A stretch of DNA of 20,044 nucleotides from a virus, in IMG/VR virus record IMGVR_UViG_3300044678_002200, positions 1-20,044 of that record. One strand, written 5' to 3'. How positions within the stretch are numbered: the stretch's first letter is position 1; each line of letters opens with the position of its first letter. This document shows positions 3,921-20,044 of the stretch, piece by piece. A model generated the notes under the pieces. The model made no database searches. It saw nothing but the letters and a program-made list of their open reading frames with translations, and was not told where the DNA came from. The position numbers were made by a program, and so were the translations under genes.

Positions 3921-3950
3921 CCTCGACTCTCGACTCTCGACCCTCGACTC
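3921..3950 (-). repeat. Heptamer tandem repeat, GTCGAGR family (inverse orientation)
   Basis: Reads YCTCGAC four times on the + strand (CCTCGAC, TCTCGAC, TCTCGAC, CCTCGAC), the reverse complement of the array at 1975-2003. It starts one base after the TAG stop at 3919. Confidence 0.95.
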
Positions 3951-5197: not shown

Positions 5198-5204
5198 CGC
5201 CCGT

Positions 5205-5232
5205 CAGCCTTCAGCCTTCAGCCTTCAGCCCT
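5205..5232 (+). repeat. Heptamer tandem repeat, CAGCCTT x4
   Basis: Three perfect CAGCCTT copies and a fourth CAGCCCT, beginning eight bases after the stop of the preceding gene. Confidence 0.95.
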
Positions 5233-6467: not shown

Positions 6468-9400
6468 ATGGCCGCTCCCTCGCAGGACGAGCTGGCCGCG
6501 CTCGATTACATCGGACCCGTCGAGGCGTCCGCTCAGGCTCAGGCATCCACCTCCCCCGATCCTCTCTCGGAGCTGGAGTATCTCTCACCCCTCGACGCCA
6601 GGGAGAATCCTCCCCTCGTCGCCGTGGACCGGACAGGAGCTCCGCTTGATCCTGCCAAGGCGGGCTTCGCCCCCGAGGGAACCGATCCCCTCTCACCGGC
6701 CAATCGCTGGAATGAGAAGTCGGCGCCCTACAAAGTCACCTCTGGTGGAATCGAGCTGGATCCCCTCCGCTACGGAGCCGGTGTCCAGTCTGCCTACGCG
6801 GCTGGCCTTATCGACCAGGCCACCTTCTCCAAGCTCTCTTCCAACGCCGCCAAGATCGAGGAGACCGCCCGCCGCCGCCGGGATCTGGAAGCCACGGCCG
6901 GATCCTCCCCCGAGGGGAAGGCCCTCCTCTACGGAGCAGGCCGGGGTGGAGCCGTCACGATGGGATTCCTGGGTGGTGCCGCGATCCCCGCTGTAGCCGG
7001 GATGGCAGCCGGTCCCGCCGCCCTGGCCACCGGCACCGCCGGAGGTATCGTGGGAGGCTATGCCGCAGGCCGCGGATACGATGCCCTCTACAAGACACTG
7101 GCCGAGAATGACTCGGAGTTCTCCAGCTACCTCGCAGCCAGCGAGGCCCGGCCCGGATACAATGCGGCCGGTGAGCTGGCCTCCATCGCCATCACCGCTC
7201 CCGCCGCCCCCTACAATCTGATCAAGGGGATCCAGCTTGTGCGCGAGACCAAGGGTGCGCTCGAAGCCGCCAAGTTCGCAGGCAAGGTCGTCGGACTCGG
7301 AGCCGGAACCGGTGCCGCCACCGACATCACCTGGAGACTGGCCGATCAGGCACTGGCCTCCGGGGATGAGACTCCCGAGGGCCCAACCTTCCAGTCCTCC
7401 TTCCAGTCCGCCGTCATGGGTGCTCTCCTCTCGGGGCTCACTGTCCAGAACAAGCGCTATGAGATGGGCGACATCCAGGCACTCGTCTCCAAGAAGCAGG
7501 CCGGTGAATCCCTCTCTCCCATGGATGAGGAGGCGGTCTCCACCGCGCTCCGCGTCACCGATGCCGTCCGGGGTGAGTATGGTCCCACTGCCCGAGGCAA
7601 CATGCGGATGCAGGGAACCTCCTTCATGGGCAAGCCCGAGGCGCTCAAGACTGAGGTGGCGCTCGGAGAGGGAGTCGAGGGTCGAGGGTCGAGAGTCGAG
7701 GGCCTACCGGCAGGACCCGGTGCGCCTGCTGATCTGGGTGAGCTGATCCCCATCGAGGATGCGCCGAGCGGGGCCTTCACCATGGATCGGAACAATGCCG
7801 TCCCGGCCAACACTCCCGAGGGCGTGATCGCCATGCCGGGCAGGCCAGCGCTGGCAGATGGAAACCTGAAACCTGCCGTAACGGATGCGAAGCAACGGCC
7901 GGGCAAGCAAACCGGAAACCTGAGTCAGCCATCCGCGCCAGCAAGCACTCCAGCTCCGGCCGATGACTTGGCTGAGTTGGAGCCGATCACGGGATACACT
8001 GATCCCGAGACAACCGGCGGGATCCCAATCCCCTACACGGAATCCAAGCTGAAGATCTCAGACATCAAACTCTCAGAGGATGTACCCAATTTTAAGGAGA
8101 ATGCCAATCCTGATACCGGCGTCGTCCGGGGCCAAGAGATCCAGGGGAACATCGACATGAGGGCCTTCGGCCATCTCATGATCTGGCAACGCAACAACGG
8201 AGCCAATGAACTGATCTCGGGGAGACACCGCTTTGACGCGGCCAAGCGCAATAGGCTGGACACGGTTCCTGCCTATGTCATGCGGGAAGCCGATGGATTC
8301 ACGAAGCCGATGGCAATGGCGCTTGACGCGGAGCTGAACATCCTCGATGAGAAAGGTGAGGTTAAAGATTATGCAAACTACTTCAGAAACACTACGATTA
8401 CAGAAGATAAGGCAGCACAGAGAGGACTCCTATCGAGAGCTAAAGGCCGCTCCGGCTTCCGAATTGGAACGGGTGCGGGGCCTGATCTCTACGCTGCATA
8501 CCAAGCAGGCCGAATCAATGAGGCGCGAACCCTCGCCATCGCAACAGCCGCCCCAGGCGACGTAGATCTCCAGCGAGCGGGCATCGCCGCCGCTCTCCGC
8601 AAGGTACCGGCCGATGAGATCACCGGCCTGCTAGGCTACATCAAGGTAGCCAAGAATCTCGAAGCACAGGGCACCCAAGGGGATCTCTTCGGGACCAGTG
8701 ACGCCGCCCTCCAGAAGGGTGAGGAGATCGCCAAGGCCGCCGCCGCCAAGGTGCGCGAGATCAATGAGCAGATCGCCGCCGTCCAGTCCGCAGCCAAGAG
8801 ACCCGAGGCCGCCGCCAAGCTGGGCGTCAATGTCAAGGATCCCGAGGGAATCCTCAACCGCGTGGCCGAACTCCAGCAGCTCGCCGCCAGGTACAAGTCC
8901 TTCTACACCGATCCGGAGATCATGGCCGAACTCTCAGGCGTCTCGCCCGAGCAGGCCGCCGCCGAGATGGCGCCACCGGCACCGGCTACCCCCAATATCG
9001 CTACCAATGGGGAGGGGAATCTCTTTGCCCCTGCCGACATGCCATTCGGCCTGACCGGTGAGGTGATGGCCGAGCCAACCCCCGCAGAGATCGCCGAGGC
9101 CGAGCGTCAGCGCCTCGCCCAGGAGGAAGCCGACCGAGCCCAAGGGGATATGTTCTCAGGGGGATTCTCAGGCACCGCCGACTACGGCCCGCAGGGTGGA
9201 TCTCGTGGAGCCCCCGCCGCCGATCCCTCCATCCCCAAGGAGGCCACGGTCATGTCACGAGGCCCCGGCTGGGAGATGCCCGAGGTCCTCGGTGCCACCG
9301 ACCGCGTGCTCCCCATCGAGGCACCCGAGCTGATCAGATGGTTCCGCGAGGCCACCGGCATGTCACCCGAGGTCCGCCGCCGGATGAAGTCGCTGGGTCT

Positions 9401-12400
9401 CTTCTACCCTGTCGGCAAGGGTCGCATCGCTCTCCGCGCCTCTCTCTTCTCCAATCCCCAATCGGTCGCCATGACCCTTGCCCATGAGATCGGTCACTGG
9501 ATCGACTACCTCCCCGACGAGTCACTGAAGAGGGGCAATATCCTAGGCAGGCTGGCGACGCTTTCCAAATTCAAGAGCAACCTTCTTCCTGAGATAGGGG
9601 GATCGAACAAGGAGATCCGCGCCGAGCTGATCGCTCTCTCCGACTGGTGGAAGCCGTTCGGTGCCGAGACGGCCAGTAAGAAATCGAGCTACTACAAGTA
9701 TCGTGTGAGCGCCGTAGAGCTCTATGCCGATGCTATCTCTGTCCTCTTCAACTCTCCGGCTGATCTGGAAGTCCGAGCCCCTAAATTCTGGAAGGCATTC
9801 TTCGACCTCGTGGATCGGAAGCCGGAGGTGGCCGAAGCCATCGCCGCCATCCAGACTTTCCTAGCCAAGGGGCCGGAGGCGGTCAACCGCACCCGGCTTG
9901 CCGAGTCGAAGGCTGGCTATGCCAAGGCAAGCGAGCTGGTCAAGCGCCGCTCCGCCGCCATGAAGGCATGGGCCAAGTCACCCCGCCGTCTCTGGGAGCG
10001 GGCCAAGGATACCTATTACTTCTACGCCCAGCCAGCCATCGAGCTGATGCACCAGAAGCGCCGATCCGGCCAGCCCCTCAAGCCGGAGGATCGGATGGAC
10101 TGGCTCTTCGAGGAGATGCCGCTGGCCAACTCCTCTGTGCAGGCCGATCTCATGGAGATCACGGCCAAGGTCTCCCCCATCCTGCAGGAAGTCGGCCTGA
10201 CCGATGATGACCTAGGGATCTACCTGGAGAACTACCGTATCGCCAATGAGCGCATCGAGGTGGAACGCCAAGTCGGCAAGGCCAGTGAGCAGGAGAGTGA
10301 GATCGAAGTCACCGGCCGGACGGTCATGGCCAATCCCGACGGCAAAGACCCCGTCATCGCCCAGGCTCTCCTCGACCAGCAGCGTGCCGACATGTCACCG
10401 GAGCAATGGGCCGCCCTCCAGCAGGCAGCCGAGGCATTCCACGATAAGATCTTCTCGGTCCTCTCGGAGGCTGTCGATGCGGGGATCATCTCCCGGGAGA
10501 TCTACGAGACGCTCCTGGTCCCGAACAAGGATGCCTACGCCACATTCACCCCGCTGAAGTATGCCGACCGCTATGTCCCGGCCGGGATCGTGAAGCAGGT
10601 GGGGACGCTCGACCAGGTCGCCAATCCCTACACACAATCCGTCCTGAAGATGGCGGCCATGCGCCGCGCCGCCCAATCCAATCAAGCCAAGGCTACCTTC
10701 TTCAACTGGATGAAGGAGAACTTCTCCGGTCTGATCCAAGATGCCGAGATGCGCTGGGATGGTCGCCGCAATGTGCCGGTGCCGACCCGCGAGGTGGGAT
10801 GGAAGACGCTCACCTACCGCGTGGACGGGAAGCTCCGCGGGGTCCACCTACCGGAGCGCTATGCGGATGTCTTCGAGTCGATGAGTCCAGCCCACCAGGA
10901 CGGACTGATGCAGGCGCTCTCCTTCCTCTGGAGCTCGGCCGCCTACCCGCTCATCATCAAATACAATCCCTCCTTCCAGCTCGCTCTCTCCCCCATGCGC
11001 GATCTGCTCCGCACGATGCGGAATGCCCCGGACAAGACCCGTGGGAGGATCCTCGGCCAGACGGCCTATCAGCTCGGGCTCGCCATGCTCCAGCCGCAGG
11101 GGCGCGAGGCTCTCGCCACCACGGCGGGAGGCGTCGTCGGCACCGCTGTCGGATCGACCATCGGATTCGTCGGGGGTCCCGCCGCGGCCGTGGCCGCCGG
11201 TCAGGTGGGAAGCTATGTCGGGAGCGCCATCGGCATGGCTCTCGGGAAGATGCTGGCCGCAATCCCGGTCAACATCGGGTCCTCCCCCCTGGTCAACCGG
11301 ATCTCCGGTCAGGCCGATGATCTCCTGATCGAGATGCTCCAGAACGGGGCGATGGTGGGGCCGCATGAGTCCTTCTACGCGACGGCCGATTCCCACGGTG
11401 CCCTCGGTGACATCCTCCGCCAATACAATATGCTCCCGGCCGAGGATCAACCGGCATGGTCCCGCAAGTGGTTCGTCAAGCCGGTCCTCTCCTATCTGCG
11501 CTCGATCCAGTTTGCCGGGCAGATCATGGAGGCTCTCCCCAAGGTCTCGGCCTACAAGGTGCTCGCCAAGGATCTCGGCTGGCCAACCCGTGAGGCGGCC
11601 GCCTATGTCCGCAACTACATGGGCGTCCCTAACTACATGAAGAAGGGGAACGGGATCTCGACGCCGGGGATTCTCTTCCCCTTCATCAATATCACGATGC
11701 GCTCCTGGGAGTCCTCGATGAAGCTCCTCGCCGGACGGGAGAAGGGGCGCAAGTCGCAGGCCGACTATCTCCTGAGTTATCTGTTCTTCGGGGGATTCCT
11801 GACGACGGTGATGACGGTCCTCGCCAGGGAGGGATTCTTCGGGGATGACATGGCCGGGATCTTCCGGAAGATCCCCGACCGCGATGTCTATGCCTATCAC
11901 TCGATCCCTGTCGGCACCACGACCACGGGAGACTATGGCTCGAAGACGGCCTACTTCCGCTGGCCTGTCGATGAGGTGGACCGCGCCATCAATGGGATGG
12001 TCTATTACGGCCTGACCTCGACGCTCCGCCAGCTCAAGGGGGAGAAGACGGGAATCGGCCTCGGCCAGATCATGGCCGTTCCTCAAGGGGAACTGCCCTC
12101 GCTCAACCCCTTCCTCTCACTGCCGGCCAAGTGGGCCACCTATGCCGCCGGGATGAATCCGATCGACGAGCACCGCGGGCGCTCGATCCTGACTGATGAC
12201 GAGCTGAAGGCGGGAGGCTGGCCCGCTGCCAAGAAGATGGTCATCCATTCGCTCGACAAGATGGGTGTCTCCAACTTCCTGCGCTATGATGAGAAGAGCA
12301 ACACGGTCTCGGAGTTCGCCGTCTCCTCGACCGCGCCGATCAACCGATTCCTGAAGATCACCGACGCCGGGGAGTCTGAGCGTGACCGGGATGAGGTGGC

Positions 12401-12686
12401 CGGTGAGGAGAAGGCAATCGCCCAGGTCCGCGTCGATCTCTCGGAGGATGTCCGCACCGCCACCCGTGAATACTCATGGCTCCAGAAGCTGGCCGAGAAA
12501 CGGACGCCTCAGCAGACGCTCCGCTTCGCTGTCCTGAAACAGTGGAACAGTCAAATCTACCGCCCGCAGATCGAGGCGATGCGCTCCGCTGTCGAGAAGG
12601 GGGATGTCGCCGCCGGTGCCCGAGCCGTCCGCACGATCAACGGGATCACCGACGGGATGAAATCAGCCTGGGCAAAGAGCCGATAA
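6468..12686 (+). CDS. Giant polyvalent DNA-ejection protein (ParB-like + metallopeptidase-like + LPD38-like)
   Basis: 2072 residues. Near the N-terminus and again around 421-508 are short acidic motifs (LAALDYIGP, LSELEYLSP, LGELIPIED, LAELEPITG). A Gly/Ala hydrophobic segment spans about 150-205. A ParB-like domain lies at about 526-640 with the signature LISG-R-H-R (G585-R588). A zinc metallopeptidase-like domain has H1006-E-I-G-H1010 and a probable third ligand E1084 in AVELYADAIS. The remainder (about 1180-1850) resembles the LPD38 region of polyvalent phage proteins, including NPSFQLALSPMRDLLRTM; hydrophobic segments lie at about 1553-1603 and 1768-1787. Known polyvalent proteins are injected with phage DNA; the length, position and membrane-like segments also match T7 gp16-type channel proteins. 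A GTCGAGR array lies in frame at residues 403-412. It has no SD. Confidence 0.9.
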   Translation: MAAPSQDELAALDYIGPVEASAQAQASTSPDPLSELEYLSPLDARENPPLVAVDRTGAPLDPAKAGFAPEGTDPLSPANRWNEKSAPYKVTSGGIELDPLRYGAGVQSAYAAGLIDQATFSKLSSNAAKIEETARRRRDLEATAGSSPEGKALLYGAGRGGAVTMGFLGGAAIPAVAGMAAGPAALATGTAGGIVGGYAAGRGYDALYKTLAENDSEFSSYLAASEARPGYNAAGELASIAITAPAAPYNLIKGIQLVRETKGALEAAKFAGKVVGLGAGTGAATDITWRLADQALASGDETPEGPTFQSSFQSAVMGALLSGLTVQNKRYEMGDIQALVSKKQAGESLSPMDEEAVSTALRVTDAVRGEYGPTARGNMRMQGTSFMGKPEALKTEVALGEGVEGRGSRVEGLPAGPGAPADLGELIPIEDAPSGAFTMDRNNAVPANTPEGVIAMPGRPALADGNLKPAVTDAKQRPGKQTGNLSQPSAPASTPAPADDLAELEPITGYTDPETTGGIPIPYTESKLKISDIKLSEDVPNFKENANPDTGVVRGQEIQGNIDMRAFGHLMIWQRNNGANELISGRHRFDAAKRNRLDTVPAYVMREADGFTKPMAMALDAELNILDEKGEVKDYANYFRNTTITEDKAAQRGLLSRAKGRSGFRIGTGAGPDLYAAYQAGRINEARTLAIATAAPGDVDLQRAGIAAALRKVPADEITGLLGYIKVAKNLEAQGTQGDLFGTSDAALQKGEEIAKAAAAKVREINEQIAAVQSAAKRPEAAAKLGVNVKDPEGILNRVAELQQLAARYKSFYTDPEIMAELSGVSPEQAAAEMAPPAPATPNIATNGEGNLFAPADMPFGLTGEVMAEPTPAEIAEAERQRLAQEEADRAQGDMFSGGFSGTADYGPQGGSRGAPAADPSIPKEATVMSRGPGWEMPEVLGATDRVLPIEAPELIRWFREATGMSPEVRRRMKSLGLFYPVGKGRIALRASLFSNPQSVAMTLAHEIGHWIDYLPDESLKRGNILGRLATLSKFKSNLLPEIGGSNKEIRAELIALSDWWKPFGAETASKKSSYYKYRVSAVELYADAISVLFNSPADLEVRAPKFWKAFFDLVDRKPEVAEAIAAIQTFLAKGPEAVNRTRLAESKAGYAKASELVKRRSAAMKAWAKSPRRLWERAKDTYYFYAQPAIELMHQKRRSGQPLKPEDRMDWLFEEMPLANSSVQADLMEITAKVSPILQEVGLTDDDLGIYLENYRIANERIEVERQVGKASEQESEIEVTGRTVMANPDGKDPVIAQALLDQQRADMSPEQWAALQQAAEAFHDKIFSVLSEAVDAGIISREIYETLLVPNKDAYATFTPLKYADRYVPAGIVKQVGTLDQVANPYTQSVLKMAAMRRAAQSNQAKATFFNWMKENFSGLIQDAEMRWDGRRNVPVPTREVGWKTLTYRVDGKLRGVHLPERYADVFESMSPAHQDGLMQALSFLWSSAAYPLIIKYNPSFQLALSPMRDLLRTMRNAPDKTRGRILGQTAYQLGLAMLQPQGREALATTAGGVVGTAVGSTIGFVGGPAAAVAAGQVGSYVGSAIGMALGKMLAAIPVNIGSSPLVNRISGQADDLLIEMLQNGAMVGPHESFYATADSHGALGDILRQYNMLPAEDQPAWSRKWFVKPVLSYLRSIQFAGQIMEALPKVSAYKVLAKDLGWPTREAAAYVRNYMGVPNYMKKGNGISTPGILFPFINITMRSWESSMKLLAGREKGRKSQADYLLSYLFFGGFLTTVMTVLAREGFFGDDMAGIFRKIPDRDVYAYHSIPVGTTTTGDYGSKTAYFRWPVDEVDRAINGMVYYGLTSTLRQLKGEKTGIGLGQIMAVPQGELPSLNPFLSLPAKWATYAAGMNPIDEHRGRSILTDDELKAGGWPAAKKMVIHSLDKMGVSNFLRYDEKSNTVSEFAVSSTAPINRFLKITDAGESERDRDEVAGEEKAIAQVRVDLSEDVRTATREYSWLQKLAEKRTPQQTLRFAVLKQWNSQIYRPQIEAMRSAVEKGDVAAGARAVRTINGITDGMKSAWAKSR
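7674..7701 (+). repeat. Heptamer tandem repeat, GTCGAGR x4, inside the ejection-protein gene
   Basis: GTCGAGG, GTCGAGG, GTCGAGA, GTCGAGG, almost identical to the intergenic array at 1975-2002. It encodes the low-complexity run VEGRGSRVEG in a linker of the giant protein. Twenty-eight bases is not a multiple of three, so either the insertion carried extra bases or the frame was compensated. Confidence 0.95.
7861..7874 (+). repeat. Short heptamer repeat, GAAACCT x2, inside the ejection-protein gene
   Basis: Two tandem GAAACCT copies, with a third isolated copy about 40 bases downstream (GGAAACCTGAG near 7914). They lie in the same disordered linker as the GTCGAGR array. Confidence 0.6.
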
Positions 12687-12745: not shown

Positions 12746-13045
12746 TTACCGCTGCCGGTTCCGCTGGCCAGCGGGAGGGTTCGCAGTCGGGACGATGAAG
12801 GTCACGTCGCCTATCTTCTGGATGTAGGTGGGGCCTCGATCCTTGTAGATGACGCCCGAGCCCTTCCCGTCTCCGGCGACAAAGGCATTCCTCCCATTGT
12901 CATTGATCTGCTGGACGCCGCCGGTGCCCTGTCCGCCGACGATGGTGGCGATTCCGACGTCCTCCAAATCGCAGTCCTGGGCTGCACAATTCATTGCAGA
13001 AACTGCAAGGATGAGGGTGGATAGTATGGTGGTGGTTGTCTTCAT
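12746..13045 (-). CDS. Small secreted protein downstream of the integrase
   Basis: 99 residues with a classical signal peptide: MKTTTTILSTLILAVSAMNCAAQ (Lys, then a hydrophobic core, then small residues), cleaved probably within CAAQ-DC. A lipobox match is poor (AMNC), so a soluble periplasmic or secreted product is preferred. The mature part is ~75 residues, Gly/Asn/Val-rich and beta-like, with a basic C-terminus (GQRNRQR). No family recognised. Its ATG overlaps the integrase stop (ATGA, 13042-13045) and its leader (13046-13076), lying inside the integrase end, contains only A and C on the coding strand. Being expressed with the integrase suggests a lysogenic-conversion (moron-type) gene; this is inference. 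Confidence 0.75.
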   Translation of the reverse strand: MKTTTTILSTLILAVSAMNCAAQDCDLEDVGIATIVGGQGTGGVQQINDNGRNAFVAGDGKGSGVIYKDRGPTYIQKIGDVTFIVPTANPPAGQRNRQR

Positions 13046-14298
13046 GGGGTGGGTGTGGTTGGTGGTGGTGTGGTGGCTGGTAGTCCGTAGATATTCAGGA
13101 GATCGCTCGGCCTGGCGCTCCGTACTCCCTTCAATTCCTTGGCATAGTACTTCGTGACGGTGACAACGGAGGCGTGCCGGAGGGTATCCCTGGCCGCGTC
13201 GGATCCGTGGACCGTGTAGATGAGTGAACCAGCCCAGCGCCTCAGCTCATAGGCTATCTTCCTACGACCTTTGATTAGATCGCGCATGGCGTCGTTAATC
13301 CCTCGTTCGCAGATCTCGAAGCGCTCGGTCTTGTTCTTGGCCGGGACGATATGGGTGCAGGTGTCGCAGGGGAGCGGCTCTCCGTTCTTGTCCATGCTGA
13401 TCTCGTGGGTGCAGGTGGTCGGCCTGAATGTCCGGAGATGCTGCCAGAGGTCGTCGCTGATCTCGACGGGTGCCGGGATGGCCTCGGCGTACTGGCCGAC
13501 GACGCGGAGGTAGCGCTTGCTCACCGGCTTGCCCTCTTCGTACTCGACTCCCTCGCTGATGTCGCTCCACTTGGCCCGCGCCACTTCGTTGTTGCGGAGC
13601 GCCAGTCTGGACATGAAGACATAGACGATCCAAAGAGGGGACCGGGCTTTCAGCAGCTCGTTGCCTTTGTTTTCTAGGGCCATCACTTCCTCCCTGGTGA
13701 AGGGGATGAATCCCGCTTCCCGATCGCCCTTGAAGTCTCGCTTGGCCCGGAAGCCGTCGAGGTTCGGGAGGATGAGGCCCTTGTAGAGTGACATGACCTT
13801 GGGGCTGATGATGCACCGTGCCTGAGTAAGGCTGGCATGGATGGAGTGGTCAGGGCGTCCTTTCGCCCTCTCCTTGGCAATATAGCTGTCGAGGGTCTCC
13901 TCGGTGAGGATCGAGGAGGGGAGCACTCGAGGGTCATCCTTGCCGGTGACGACTCGCAGGAGGGTCTCCATGGCGGAGATGTAGTTATTCCTGGTGGCTG
14001 GTGCGATGTCCCGCTCGGCTGCCATGTAGCGGTCCAGGATATCGCCTACGGTGGCAAGACCGGTAGTCGAGGCCGTCACGGGCTTCTTGGGCTCTTTCTT
14101 CCAGTCGTTCTTCTCCAGCTTGCCGAGCTCCACCTTGGCCTGTTTCACGGCCTGGTCCTTCAGGCTGGTCCCGAGGGTCTTCCAGATTGCCCGGCCATCC
14201 CGGCGGAGGCGGAGATAGAGATTGTCCCCGCGACGCCAAAGCGTGTAGCTTTTCCCTCGGTGAACGACAACGATTTCGGATCTCTCAGCGGTGCTCAT
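13042..14298 (-). CDS. int: Tyrosine recombinase, phage integrase
   Basis: 418 residues. Residues about 13-60 form a small arm-type DNA-binding domain (KSYTLWRRGDNLYLRLRRDG...WKTLGT). A SAM-like core-binding domain (about 82-165) starts TVGDILDRYMAAERDI. The catalytic domain has R235 (LALRNNEVARAKWSDI), box II Y350-E-L-R353 with Tyr replacing the usual first His, H375 (LRHAS) and nucleophile Y384 (VTKYYAK). Between boxes I and II lies an unusual Cys/His cluster: C296-T-H, C311-D-T-C314-T-H316 and C330. The C-terminus TTPPPTTPTP is encoded by the AC-rich leader of the next gene. AAGGA at 14308-14312, nine bases before ATG, is one of the few SDs in the window. The candidate attP directly upstream supports its role. 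Confidence 0.95.
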   Translation of the reverse strand: MSTAERSEIVVVHRGKSYTLWRRGDNLYLRLRRDGRAIWKTLGTSLKDQAVKQAKVELGKLEKNDWKKEPKKPVTASTTGLATVGDILDRYMAAERDIAPATRNNYISAMETLLRVVTGKDDPRVLPSSILTEETLDSYIAKERAKGRPDHSIHASLTQARCIISPKVMSLYKGLILPNLDGFRAKRDFKGDREAGFIPFTREEVMALENKGNELLKARSPLWIVYVFMSRLALRNNEVARAKWSDISEGVEYEEGKPVSKRYLRVVGQYAEAIPAPVEISDDLWQHLRTFRPTTCTHEISMDKNGEPLPCDTCTHIVPAKNKTERFEICERGINDAMRDLIKGRRKIAYELRRWAGSLIYTVHGSDAARDTLRHASVVTVTKYYAKELKGVRSARPSDLLNIYGLPATTPPPTTPTP

Positions 14299-17472: not shown

Positions 17473-17748
17473 CTAGCTCGGCGGGCGGTTGCGGTCGTCC
17501 TTCTCGGCTGCCCTTCGTGCTTTCTGGAGTGTGTTCGAGGGGATTTTCCCGGTGCCAGTGACGCGGGGAAACGTGGTCCCGGCAAGCACGGAAGCCGTCA
17601 CCGCGGCGCTAATGTAGCCCCCGCGTGAAAGCCCGCTTTCCCTGGCAAGAAAGTCCATGGCGGCGAGCACCTCGACGCAGAGTGTCGAACTGATGCTGGC
17701 TTTCCCTTTCCCCGGGCCGTTTCCCGTGCGTTCGTTCTTCTTGGTCAT
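17473..17748 (-). CDS. Ribbon-helix-helix-like small protein
   Basis: 91 residues from ATG 17748-17746, which overlaps the TAA of the lipoprotein gene (TAATG); a longer in-frame extension into that gene is rejected. After a basic N-terminus (TKKNERTGNGPGKGK), the segment ASISSTLCVEVLAAMDFLARESGLSRGGYISAAVTASV fits the strand-helix-turn-helix layout of CopG/Arc (RHH) DNA-binding proteins. The C-terminus is basic and helical (LQKARRAAEKDDRNRPPS). A role as transcription or plasmid/phage-copy regulator is inferred from the fold only; I am moderately sure of the fold. Confidence 0.7.
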   Translation of the reverse strand: MTKKNERTGNGPGKGKASISSTLCVEVLAAMDFLARESGLSRGGYISAAVTASVLAGTTFPRVTGTGKIPSNTLQKARRAAEKDDRNRPPS

Positions 17749-18062
17749 TAGTAGGTGAAGTTGGAATTTGTGGCGTTTGTAAGTTCCTTCTGAATCAATG
17801 CCGCCGCTTTGATGGCAGTGTCGCGCTCTAAGATCGGCCGCCAAAGGCTGAGGGTTCCACCATTGGCCGGGATCTTGGCGAGCTGCCATGCCTCTCCAGT
17901 GGTCGTATCAATTCGGAGGGTTGTCCTGGTTCCGTTTTCGGGATCGGTTCCCTCGTGTAGTGCGTACTTGGCAGACTGCGAACAGGAAGCACACAGAGCA
18001 CAAAGGAACAACAGGAGCAGGAGTAATACAAATGGACTTGTCTTTCTTGTGCGGTTTCTCAT
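17748..18062 (-). CDS. Small lipoprotein
   Basis: 104 residues if started at ATG 18062-18060; a TTG start at 18077 would add five residues (MQITF) ahead of the natural signal peptide. The N-terminus MRNRTRKTSPF is basic, followed by a Leu-rich core and LCALCAS-C27, where C27 with Ala/Ser before it is the likely lipidated cysteine. The mature part is a small mixed domain (KYALHEGTDPENGTRTTLRIDTTTGEAWQLAKIP). Possible roles are a superinfection-exclusion lipoprotein or, less likely from its place in the early region, a spanin-type lysis lipoprotein. No family match is evident. Confidence 0.7.
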   Translation of the reverse strand: MRNRTRKTSPFVLLLLLLFLCALCASCSQSAKYALHEGTDPENGTRTTLRIDTTTGEAWQLAKIPANGGTLSLWRPILERDTAIKAAALIQKELTNATNSNFTY

Positions 18063-18080
18063 AAAGGTAATCTGCAATCT

Positions 18081-18395
18081 CTACGATGTTGCCCGGCGTT
18101 TCGTTTGGTTTAACGCGGCCTGCGGTCCGGGGTTATTCTTCTTGGCATGAAAACCAATCCTGGGCGTGTTCGCCGGGGGCTCTTCGGCCACTTTAGCGGT
18201 TTCTGATTGTGCAGGAGGATAGACGCGGCTCAGGAGGTTGGTCCGGTCAAGCTGCTCTATGGTGTCCAGAAACTCGGAAATTGCGGTGACGGCCAAGTCC
18301 GCTTTGGTGATCCCGCGATCGTCACAGAACTTATCGAGTCGGGCCTTTAATGCCTTTGGCAGTCTGAAGTTGAAAGTGCTTTCCCGCTTCTTCAT
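18081..18395 (-). CDS. Ribbon-helix-helix repressor-like protein, leftward arm of the switch
   Basis: 104 residues from ATG 18395-18393; a TTG six codons upstream would overlap the candidate operator and is less likely. Residues about 5-45 (STFNFRLPKALKARLDKFCDDRGITKADLAVTAISEFLDT) show the RHH pattern: a short strand (FNFRLP), then two helices separated by a Gly turn. The C-terminal half is long, Pro/Ala-rich and basic at the end (AALNQTKRRATS), probably flexible. It is divergent from the RHH gene at 18488 and shares the TGTGSCACA sites between them, so it is probably one partner in a bistable early switch that sets lysogeny or early-operon expression. First gene of the leftward operon. Confidence 0.8.
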   Translation of the reverse strand: MKKRESTFNFRLPKALKARLDKFCDDRGITKADLAVTAISEFLDTIEQLDRTNLLSRVYPPAQSETAKVAEEPPANTPRIGFHAKKNNPGPQAALNQTKRRATS

Positions 18396-18403
18396 GCACC
18401 CAA

Positions 18404-18412
18404 TGTGCCACA
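18404..18412. promoter_or_regulatory. TGTGSCACA candidate operator 1
   Basis: TGTGCCACA, a near-perfect palindrome around the centre base, eight bases upstream of the leftward RHH start codon. Three such 9-mers occur within 234 bp here. Confidence 0.55.
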
Positions 18413-18451
18413 ATGGAAATTCCCTGCACTAAGAATTTCGCTTATTTGTGT

Positions 18452-18479
18452 TTGACTTGTGCCACAGTTCATATACAAC
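18452..18479 (+). promoter_or_regulatory. Candidate rightward promoter with leaderless start
   Basis: TTGACT (18452-18457), 16 bp spacer, TACAAC (18474-18479); TATACA overlaps at 18472. The predicted start of transcription would be about 7-9 bases after, practically at ATG 18488, and no SD precedes that ATG, so the RHH message may be leaderless. Operator 2 lies in the spacer between the -35 and -10 elements. Confidence 0.4.
18458..18466. promoter_or_regulatory. TGTGSCACA candidate operator 2
   Basis: TGTGCCACA in the same orientation as operator 1, 54 bp away, placed between the -35 and -10 of the candidate rightward promoter, where a bound repressor would block polymerase. Confidence 0.55.
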
Positions 18480-18487
18480 TCGTGTCC

Positions 18488-18676
18488 ATGCCCGATCAAC
18501 TCGACGCAACCATGACCATGAGAATCCCCGTTGAACTCAAGGCGCGACTCCGCGCGGAAGCCGATAAACACTGGCTGAAACCTTCCGATGTCGCACGCAT
18601 CGCCATCCGTGATTTCTTGGATGCAAAGTGTGGCACAACCGAATTGCAAGCGAATCACGAGGAGGTTGAGAAATGA
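18488..18676 (+). CDS. Ribbon-helix-helix protein, rightward arm of the switch
   Basis: 62 residues from ATG 18488; an in-frame ATG 75 bases upstream would extend the frame through the promoter/operator and is rejected. Residues about 9-45 (TMTMRIPVELKARLRAEADKHWLKPSDVARIAIRDFLD) form a clear RHH: strand TMTMRIP, first helix VELKARLRAEADKHW, second helix SDVARIAIRDFL. It pairs with the divergent RHH gene across shared TGTGSCACA sites, a third one lying inside its own coding end (18629-18637). Likely a Cro-like or Arc/Mnt-like early regulator. The stop overlaps the next ATG (ATGA). Confidence 0.85.
   Translation: MPDQLDATMTMRIPVELKARLRAEADKHWLKPSDVARIAIRDFLDAKCGTTELQANHEEVEK
18629..18637. promoter_or_regulatory. 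TGTGSCACA candidate operator 3 (intragenic)
   Basis: TGTGGCACA, the reverse complement of operators 1 and 2, within the 3' part of the rightward RHH gene, about 170 bp from operator 2. This distance would allow looping or cooperative repression. Confidence 0.45.
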
Positions 18677-18807
18677 GCGCCCACGCCTTCATTCTTGAGC
18701 TTTTGGGGATCGGGTTCTTGCTTTCCCTGGCAATCTTCTCCGGGCCTCTCTCTGCCGCCGCCCTTTCTTTTTTTTACGGTTCCAACAACCGGAGGGTAAG
18801 AAAATGA
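18673..18807 (+). CDS. Mini membrane protein (44 aa)
   Basis: 44 residues from ATG 18673, which overlaps the stop of the RHH gene (ATGA) and is preceded by a strong SD, AGGAGG at 18660-18665 with seven bases spacing. Residues about 5-34 are hydrophobic (FILELLGIGFLLSLAIFSGP...AAALSFF), followed by a basic end (NNRRVRK), giving one membrane helix with a positively charged cytoplasmic tail. A superinfection-immunity or holin-like small protein is possible; nothing diagnostic is present. A T8 tract lies near its end (18768-18775), and its ATGA stop overlap carries the next start. Confidence 0.75.
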   Translation: MSAHAFILELLGIGFLLSLAIFSGPLSAAALSFFYGSNNRRVRK

Positions 18808-19025
18808 GCATCGCGGGGGAACTGGTGCGTCTGGAGGTCTGGCCGTCGAGGAAGACCCGCGTCATTCTTGAGAAGTTAAAACCCGCATGGCTCCTCGCCA
18901 TGCACCCCGGCGTTTCTTTTTTTTATAGGGTAGAAGTCAATAATGACACAAGGACACTAACTCCCGACCCTTCGAGGGCTCGTGATGTCTTCCGGGAGTC
19001 GTGCCGCTGGGCTGCTAAAGCATGA
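18804..19025 (+). CDS. Unknown small protein
   Basis: 73 residues from ATG 18804, with an SD (GGAGGG, 18791-18796, seven bases before ATG) and ATGA overlap with the mini membrane protein. The sequence MSIAGELVRLEVWPSRKTRVILEKLKPAWLLAMHPGVSFFYRVEV looks like a small alpha/beta domain; the C-terminus is basic and Arg-rich. No family recognised. It contains a T8 tract (18917-18924) in the identical context TTTCTTTTTTTTA and encodes SFFY there, as the previous gene does at its own tract. Its stop overlaps the next gene (ATGA). Confidence 0.7.
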   Translation: MSIAGELVRLEVWPSRKTRVILEKLKPAWLLAMHPGVSFFYRVEVNNDTRTLTPDPSRARDVFRESCRWAAKA

Positions 19026-19222
19026 GCGCGACCACTTCCACCACTCCGGCCCGCTGGCTGACTTCCCGCGAGGTGTGCGACCGCCTCGGGATCCACTTGA
19101 ACACGCTCGCCCGTTACGTCGCTGCGGGCGAGTTCGGCAAGGTTCTCTTTCTGAGCCGGAAGGATAGGCGGATCTCTGAAACTGCACTGGATGCGTTCAT
19201 CGCCCGCCGCTTAGTTGGATAA
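19022..19222 (+). CDS. Excisionase/MerR-type helix-turn-helix protein
   Basis: 66 residues. ARWLTSREVCDRLGIHLNTLARYVAAGEFGKVLFLSRKDRRISETALDAFIARRLVG has the layout of the small winged-helix/HTH family used by excisionases and other phage DNA-binding proteins: LTxxEVxxRLGIxxNTLxRYVxxGE, then a basic wing, then xxRISExALDAFIARR. It could be the directionality factor (Xis) for the integrase, or a regulator of the early or packaging genes; the first is favoured since an attP and integrase exist. No SD precedes its ATG, which overlaps the upstream stop (ATGA), so coupling is likely. Confidence 0.85.
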   Translation: MSATTSTTPARWLTSREVCDRLGIHLNTLARYVAAGEFGKVLFLSRKDRRISETALDAFIARRLVG

Positions 19223-19223
19223 C

Positions 19224-20044
19224 ATGGCCAAGCGTTCCAAGCCTTCACTCCTGGATGAGGTGGCCGCCGATGAGGCCGCCGCCCCTTCTCTTTTTTTAAT
19301 TTCTACGGAAGAGGAAGGGAATCAGGAGATGGAAAGACGCGGAGAGTTCACCGCCGAGAGGCTGATGGAATCCCGTCCGACGATATACCGGGCGCTTGTC
19401 GATGGTCTCGGGCAAGGTCTCGGGGTTCGTCAACTCTGCCGGGCGTATCGGGTGAGTCATCACACGGTCGCCGCCGTCATGGCTCGGGAGTCTCAAGCTG
19501 TAGCCACAGTGAAAGAAAGGACTGTGAGTGTGTTGCGGACATTCGGACGACTCGCCGCTGATCGTCTCCTGGATGAAGTCGATCAGATACCTATCCAGTC
19601 ACTTCCCATTGCCCTGGGCATCGCTGTCGAAAAGGCTGAACTCCTATCCGGTGGAGCAACGTCGAGGATCGAGCACGCCGAGAGCGGACCCACTCACGAG
19701 GACTATCTGCGGATGATCCAGGGCAAGGTGATTGATGCCGAGGTTGTCCCGGCTATCGGTTTACAAGGGGAAGAAGCGCCACAAAAGAGCGCCGATCCCG
19801 CCGCCCTGGCGCAGGCAGAGCCCTTCGAGGTGAGCGCCCCGGCTGCCGACCTGGCTCTCCTCCCTGGTGTCTCTTCTGCTGCCTTGATTCCCACTGGAAT
19901 CAGTGAGAAACCTTCAACACCTGATGAGCAATCAGATGGTTTGACAGGTTCCGACTCTGTAGATGATGGGATTGCTACGCTTTCTGATACACATTCGCCC
20001 GGCTTCGAGGCCGTCGAGGATGGCCAGCCAGCCACTCAGGAGCC
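19224..20044 (+). CDS. HTH phage protein, candidate small terminase subunit (3' end missing)
   Basis: Open from ATG 19224 to the right edge, 273 codons without a stop. Residues 63-86 (GQGLGVRQLCRAYRVSHHTVAAVMARES) are a clear helix-turn-helix; the region 95-150 is helical with a hydrophobic face (VSVLRTFGRLAADRLLDEV...LPIALGIAVEKAELLSG), and residues after 150 are acidic, Pro/Ala/Ser-rich and probably disordered. A DNA-binding N-terminus plus helical oligomerising region right before the expected terminase suggests the packaging initiator (TerS), but a late regulator is equally possible. A T7 tract (19291-19297) occurs near the N-terminus; a later start at Met36 would place it in the leader. 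The hairpin GATTCCCACTGGAATC lies near 19887-19902. Confidence 0.75.
   Translation, partial: MAKRSKPSLLDEVAADEAAAPSLFLISTEEEGNQEMERRGEFTAERLMESRPTIYRALVDGLGQGLGVRQLCRAYRVSHHTVAAVMARESQAVATVKERTVSVLRTFGRLAADRLLDEVDQIPIQSLPIALGIAVEKAELLSGGATSRIEHAESGPTHEDYLRMIQGKVIDAEVVPAIGLQGEEAPQKSADPAALAQAEPFEVSAPAADLALLPGVSSAALIPTGISEKPSTPDEQSDGLTGSDSVDDGIATLSDTHSPGFEAVEDGQPATQE

Follow-up and report, generated by a model that had tools for sequence, protein, structure and literature searches.

Layout of the locus

The window, meaning the whole stretch of DNA analysed here (IMG/VR virus record IMGVR_UViG_3300044678_002200, positions 1-20,044; 20,044 bases), carries two small putative ribbon-helix-helix (RHH) genes, RHH_L on the minus strand and RHH_R on the plus strand. 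Their start codons (18395 and 18488) face apart across a spacer of 92 bp, in agreement with the first-pass annotation, which had put two divergent RHH genes around a spacer of about 90 bp. The features of the locus are as follows.

13042..14298, minus strand: integrase, far end of the leftward gene run (PHROG 1 integrase, E 2.9e-14)
17473..17745, minus strand: RHH3, third RHH-like gene of the leftward operon (weak PHROG repressor match)
17748..18077, minus strand: small lipoprotein-like gene, second of the leftward operon (lipobox-like N-terminus in the ORF)
18081..18395, minus strand: RHH_L, 104 aa, leads the leftward (int) operon; proposed prophage repressor
18404..18412, plus strand: operator-like site 1, TGTGCCACA, exact match, 8 bp upstream of the RHH_L ATG
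18452..18457, plus strand: -35-like TTGACT (TTGAC[TA] invariant among relatives)
18458..18466, plus strand: operator-like site 2, TGTGCCACA, exact match, between the -35-like and -10-like hexamers of RHH_R
18474..18479, plus strand: -10-like TACAAC, 8 nt before the RHH_R ATG (TACAA[CA] invariant among relatives)
18488..18676, plus strand: RHH_R, 62 aa, leads the rightward operon; proposed lytic (Cro/Arc-like) repressor
18629..18637, plus strand: operator-like site 3, TGTGGCACA, exact match, RHH_R 3' end, 171 bp from site 2
18673..18807, plus strand: 44-aa small hydrophobic protein (ORF; start overlaps the RHH_R stop)
18804..19025, plus strand: 73-aa conserved protein of the rightward operon (tblastn matches in relatives)
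19022..19222, plus strand: HTH_17 protein, excisionase-like (Xis-like), rightward operon (Pfam HTH_17, 5.8e-11)
19224..20042, plus strand: P5, conserved HTH-like marker protein of the phage family; runs off the window

The RHH cassette divides a leftward operon ending in int from a rightward operon with Xis-like and replication functions. This is the divergent position between lysogenic and lytic operons known from lambda, with DnaB further right in relative G001. The HTH_17 protein also matched PHROG 66, excisionase and transcriptional regulator (5.9e-7). P5 matched no Pfam family above cut-off; it marks a phage clade (39 loci) and could serve as a probe for further members. The lipoprotein-like gene, which has homologs in relatives carrying different switch cassettes, lies directly behind RHH_L and is a candidate superinfection-exclusion gene.

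RHH_L and RHH_R as paralogous RHH proteins

The RHH fold (Arc/CopG/MetJ) consists of a beta-strand followed by two helices, some 45 residues in all. Pfam RHH scores of both proteins were below threshold. Against PHROGs, RHH_L matched Arc-like (E 8e-5) and CopG-like (E 7e-4) repressors, and the best match of RHH_R was an unnamed family, at only E 2e-3. AlphaFold models of the two proteins have helices at 15-28/32-47 and 14-27/31-48 after a strand-like N-terminal segment, the order of elements of an RHH protein. The top Foldseek matches in the PDB were dominated by RHH proteins (CopG, ORF56, Arc, VapB, AmrZ, SvtR), with CopG and Arc for RHH_L and ORF56, CopG and Arc for RHH_R; their E-values, above 0.5, are weak as expected because the chains are so short.

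RHH_L and RHH_R align with each other at 40% over 40 residues (E 5e-8; hhalign probability 96.6%) and by this comparison are homologous, that is, paralogs. At those alternating positions which, from known RHH-DNA complexes, are expected to touch DNA, there is little difference between their putative contact strands (STFNFRLP and ATMTMRIP). The palindromic sites are consistent with an RHH dimer, modelled here as monomers, placing its sheet in the major groove of a symmetric operator. Searches of GenBank phages gave no match for RHH_L or P5 and matches of E 0.4 or worse for RHH_R; a search of genome contigs with RHH_R gave none.

Three TGTGSCACA sites confined to the cassette

The first-pass annotation had reported three TGTGSCACA sites, at 18404, 18458 and 18629, as far above chance. 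They proved to be exact and the sole matches in the window, with no further copy in 20,044 bases even at one mismatch and 0.10 exact matches expected under a first-order Markov model. Since any odd 9-bp palindrome occurred three times within 234 bp in only 1 of 500 dinucleotide shuffles, the triplet exceeds chance even after post hoc choice of the motif. The third site had been called the inverse of the others. It does lie inside RHH_R as described, but the orientation does not hold, since TGTG-S-CACA is palindromic and "inverse" therefore means a difference in the central base only. All three sites have one common core. Site 1 overlies the RHH_L start region, and site 2 takes up the leading 9 of the 16 bp that separate TTGACT from TACAAC. 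CRP-like sites (TGTGA-N6-TCACA) and DnaA boxes, judged by their usual consensus, do not seem to match them.

Protein plus DNA searches yielded eight IMG/VR records with the same RHH pair. Both spacer sites are present in all eight, 54-55 bp apart, and a counterpart of site 3 lies at the RHH_R 3' end in each, 169-171 bp beyond site 2. One relative has a one-base variant of site 1, TGTAGCACA; site 2 reads TGTG.CACA in every relative; and site 3 has a one-base change in one relative, other than the site 1 variant. The central base alternates freely between C and G, and a strongly conserved spacer block reads GCTTATTTGTG.TTGAC.TGTG.CACA. In total, the eight relatives (∼240 kb) contain 22 exact copies, all inside the cassette and none elsewhere, and no copies of TGTGSCACA were found in phages whose slot holds another RHH pair. 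Conservation of the sites beside the homologous gene pair had been set in advance as one test of the switch reading, and the sites passed it in eight relatives, with fixed geometry and exclusively within the cassette. That short 9-mers picked after the fact merely coincide here is an explanation to which we give practically no weight: it is already refuted by the conservation, exclusivity and fixed spacing in the eight relatives.

A scan of IMG/VR for the two-site DNA geometry, made without protein, recovered L014 and L028, which the RHH_R protein search had missed and whose RHH proteins are 53-63% identical to those of the window. An RHH pair accompanies 7 of its 18 matches (L014, L018, L020, L022, L027, L028 and L029); the other 11 are chance-like, have no RHH neighbours and were rejected.

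Among some 27 degenerate codons for conserved residues of RHH_R, only GGC and ACA, the two in site 3, are invariant in nine sequences, and nearly all the others vary synonymously. Because these two alone never vary, site 3 is retained for its DNA sequence.

A conserved promoter-like element around site 2

The placing of the middle site between TTGACT and TACAAC in the first-pass annotation was borne out by the relatives, all of which conserve the layout TTGAC[TA], 16 bp, TACAA[CA], with the ATG 6-8 nt beyond. This suggests that site 2 lies inside the RHH_R promoter, and the distance of 6-8 nt from the -10-like hexamer to the ATG suggests a leaderless RHH_R mRNA. The hexamer pair does not amount to a consensus sigma-70 promoter, and no promoter on either strand passed a strict sigma-70 scan. 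For the leftward promoter, a search for a consistent hexamer pair found none.

Exchange of the putative switch cassette between related phages

Phages with the common flanks (RHH3, lipoprotein gene, 73-aa gene, HTH_17 gene and P5) but without TGTGNCACA carry unrelated RHH pairs. The exchanged unit comprises the DNA-binding part of RHH_L, the spacer and RHH_R: DNA homology between cassettes ends inside RHH_L past the DNA-binding part and resumes just beyond RHH_R, the 44-aa gene forming the right border. Two relatives, for example, are 97% identical in the lipoprotein gene and in the tail of RHH_L, and from there to the end of RHH_R their sequences are unrelated; this tail (LRAAENP...RSAGA) is common to different cassettes. 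The pattern of homology breaks looks like an exchange of immunity specificity. Relatives conserve RHH3 whether their cassette is A, B or C, and it is not part of the exchanged unit. With the RHH_L of cassette B it shares 48-54% identity over 48 residues, and the two are therefore related; RHH3 could be a further participant in the switch.

RHH folds occur widely among antitoxins and ParB-type proteins, for example omega of pSM19035 (PMC9499535), and the pair might accordingly belong to toxin-antitoxin systems, as two antitoxins, or form an RHH partition locus. We regard both as highly improbable. The small neighbouring genes stay put when the RHH genes are swapped and are therefore not cognate toxins; type II toxin-antitoxin was rejected for want of a co-inherited toxin. 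A search with AAA_31 found no ParA-type ATPase gene in eight relatives, and the sites, single palindromes set apart from one another, do not form contiguous repeats; partition of the ParG or omega kind was rejected on the missing ATPase.

The alignment of P5 gathered 39 loci, of which ∼37 could be classified. In ∼34 of these the slot holds an RHH or RHH-like pair, some calls being weak, and the RHH cassettes fall into at least eight sequence-unrelated classes, A-H, with class G called on weak profile matches (E 1e-2 to 1e-3). In the remaining three loci (L068, L070 and L087) a protein above the HTH_3 or HTH_26 (Cro/C1-type) cut-offs replaces the RHH pair. Comparison of L068 with L069 was the most direct: the flanks are identical at 95.3% of DNA positions on the left and 92% on the right, and the ∼700 bp between them show no similarity: in L069 they hold RHH_L with RHH_R, in L068 an HTH repressor with one small gene. 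The finding of a C1-type HTH repressor in the same slot of near-identical sister phages strengthens the earlier reading of the locus as a switch. Because this repressor takes the position of RHH_L, we assign the prophage-repressor role to RHH_L.

The right gene of the three HTH cassettes matches no known repressor family. A circuit with one repressor and no toggle could be read from this, in which RHH_L, RHH_R or RHH3 alone uses all three sites, autoregulates and controls both operons and the partner does something else; the single core sequence in all sites would suit it too. We nevertheless consider such a circuit unlikely, as almost every cassette pairs two RHH genes, which travel with the spacer when exchanged, and the window's RHH_L and RHH_R are paralogs with similar contact strands.

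A third site also occurs in two other cassettes. In cassette C, ACTCATGAG lies in the promoter gap and is repeated 170 bp downstream inside the RHH_R gene; 14 of 20,000 shuffled spacers give such a 9-mer repeat at this offset. In cassette E, TTGTCAGAAAGTTTCTGACAA inside the gene, conserved between two phages, is related to the promoter elements TGTCAGA/TTTCTGA. We do not claim a universal third operator, because B, D, F and G showed none and the one in H is weak. The similar distance of ∼170 bp may reflect the length of the RHH domain, the coding sequence beyond it being free to vary.

Search for a separate repressor or antirepressor

HTH_3 and Peptidase_S24 searches found no match in 12 close relatives of 9-44 kb, which are metagenomic records, possibly incomplete, and might have an unknown repressor elsewhere; no P22-type separate primary immunity region with an HTH repressor was found among these 12. 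One of the relatives, G001 (40.7 kb), has integrase, DnaB, terminase, capsid and portal genes, and because it spans all of these it is close to a whole genome. In group D, a weak, sub-threshold HTH_3-like gene occurs elsewhere in the leftward operon, in the RHH and the HTH sister alike. The earlier statement that the switch is made of RHH proteins alone, with no CI/Cro-type repressor, stands in that HTH_3 and S24 are lacking in the 12 relatives and that C1-type HTH proteins occupy this locus in the sisters L068, L070 and L087 only; it needs amending in that the rightward operon has an Xis-like HTH_17 protein. Neither ANT nor Bro-N, the antirepressor domains sought, matched in eight relatives.

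These results bear on whether the locus is a secondary one like immI of P22, where the RHH pair would control an antirepressor or superinfection function and an unrecognised primary repressor would keep lysogeny. P22 has divergent RHH genes, mnt and arc, which control ant beside a separate immC (PMC11016777, PMC7549136), and the lipoprotein-like gene that follows RHH_L might serve in exclusion. On the other side, ANT, Bro-N, HTH_3 and S24 genes are all absent from the relatives searched, the pair lies between the int and replication operons and not in the late region, and a C1-type repressor fills the same slot in sister phages. We judge a secondary locus improbable.

A proposed RHH-based immunity switch

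We consider it quite likely that this locus serves a temperate phage as its primary immunity (lysis-lysogeny) region, built from RHH repressors, since integrase lies leftward, the Xis-like HTH_17 gene rightward and, in relatives, replication genes further right. The best reading combines a logic like that of P22 mnt/arc with a position like that of CI/Cro. What the sequences show is the sites, their geometry and conservation, the cassette exchange and the operon logic; binding, site allotment, repression, bistability and looping we infer. RHH_L and RHH_R, as paralogous dimers with near-equal contact strands, would probably read one palindrome, TGTGSCACA. Bound to site 2, between -35 and -10, a dimer would block the rightward promoter; bound to site 1, which overlies the start region of RHH_L, it would switch that gene off. 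RHH_L would thus play the CI/Mnt role and RHH_R the Cro/Arc role, and site 3, ∼170 bp inside RHH_R, might act as an auxiliary operator through looping, cooperativity or a roadblock.

A broader proposal has, in our estimation, an even chance of being right: that throughout this uncultured clade of temperate phages exchangeable RHH/RHH cassettes with their own operators are the only immunity system, that they swap with CI-type HTH cassettes in the same slot, and that an auxiliary operator evolved ∼170 bp inside the lytic repressor gene in the unrelated cassettes A, C and E, for looping or roadblock control.

Relation to known systems

The usual account of phage immunity is built on HTH repressors of the CI/Cro kind. 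In lambda, divergent cI and cro lie between the lysogenic and lytic operons, with operators OR1-3, exchange of cassettes and a leaderless repressor mRNA. The present locus resembles it in its divergent genes between operons, three palindrome copies, cassette exchange and probable leaderless repressor mRNA. It differs in having RHH in place of HTH proteins, no S24 autocleavage domain and one operator inside a coding region.

RHH proteins in such roles have precedents, P22 Mnt/Arc and SSV1 F55. P22 immI has two small paralogous RHH repressors, ∼40% alike, each regulating the other's operon (PMC11016777, PMC7549136). The pair described here is likewise two divergent homologous RHH genes, ∼40% alike, proposed as a lysogenic-side and a lytic-side repressor. 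However, immI lies among the late genes as a secondary region, and the antirepressor that it controls acts on C2 in immC, whereas this RHH pair sits between int and replication operons, has different operators and is accompanied, in the relatives searched, by neither an antirepressor nor a C2-type gene. That lysogeny of an archaeal virus can depend on an RHH protein is shown by SSV1 F55, a repressor of this fold which keeps up the carrier state; in AFV6, AvtR/gp30 acts on the stretch separating its own promoter from the promoter of a second predicted RHH gene (PMC5569661). Both are proteins of archaeal viruses with unrelated sequences and tandem-repeat or degenerate operators, and no cassette exchange is described for them. 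In 12 of 182 Pf prophages the repressor C gene is missing where an Arc-family gene has been inserted (PMC7549136), but these are filamentous phages, and no divergent RHH/RHH pair or operator set is described in that work. What appears to be new here is an RHH pair as the main switch, its frequent exchange as a cassette and its interchange with C1-type repressors.

A large phage family thus appears to run its lysis-lysogeny decision with two very small RHH proteins. The natural swap in near-identical phages would allow a direct comparison of two unrelated repressor folds in one job, and the cassettes offer eight or more ready-made RHH specificities, each with the operators that go with it. An RHH switch would also explain the repressor-less look of many integrase-bearing metagenomic phages.

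Other features of the window and its relatives

A search of genome contigs with P5 found only L045 (LJOT01000296.1), a 4.5-kb Anabaena MAG contig that has this phage region with cassette C; it is either a hint to the host or a binning error, the context being too small to name a host. In other cassettes than that of the window, long inverted repeats overlie the RHH_R promoter, at L074:3653-3766 and in the L077 spacer, such as GGTATATTTCAC...GTGAAATATACC and GGGTGTGTTTG...CAAACACACCC. In-frame runs of 7-8 T (TTTCTTTTTTTTA or similar) occur at 18754, 18903 and 19277, in the 44-aa, 73-aa and P5 genes; they are conserved in relative G001 and might cause slippage or pausing. Several arrays of 7-bp units in tandem are found in the window at 53-82, 2015-2042, 3922-3950, 5204-5230 and 7674-7702, and repeats of the CCTTCAGCCT type are the commonest 10-mers in relatives G001, G003 and G004. 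Finally, positions 6468-12686 form a single open frame of 2072 aa, homologous to a 2184-aa frame of relative G001, which probably encodes a large internal virion protein.
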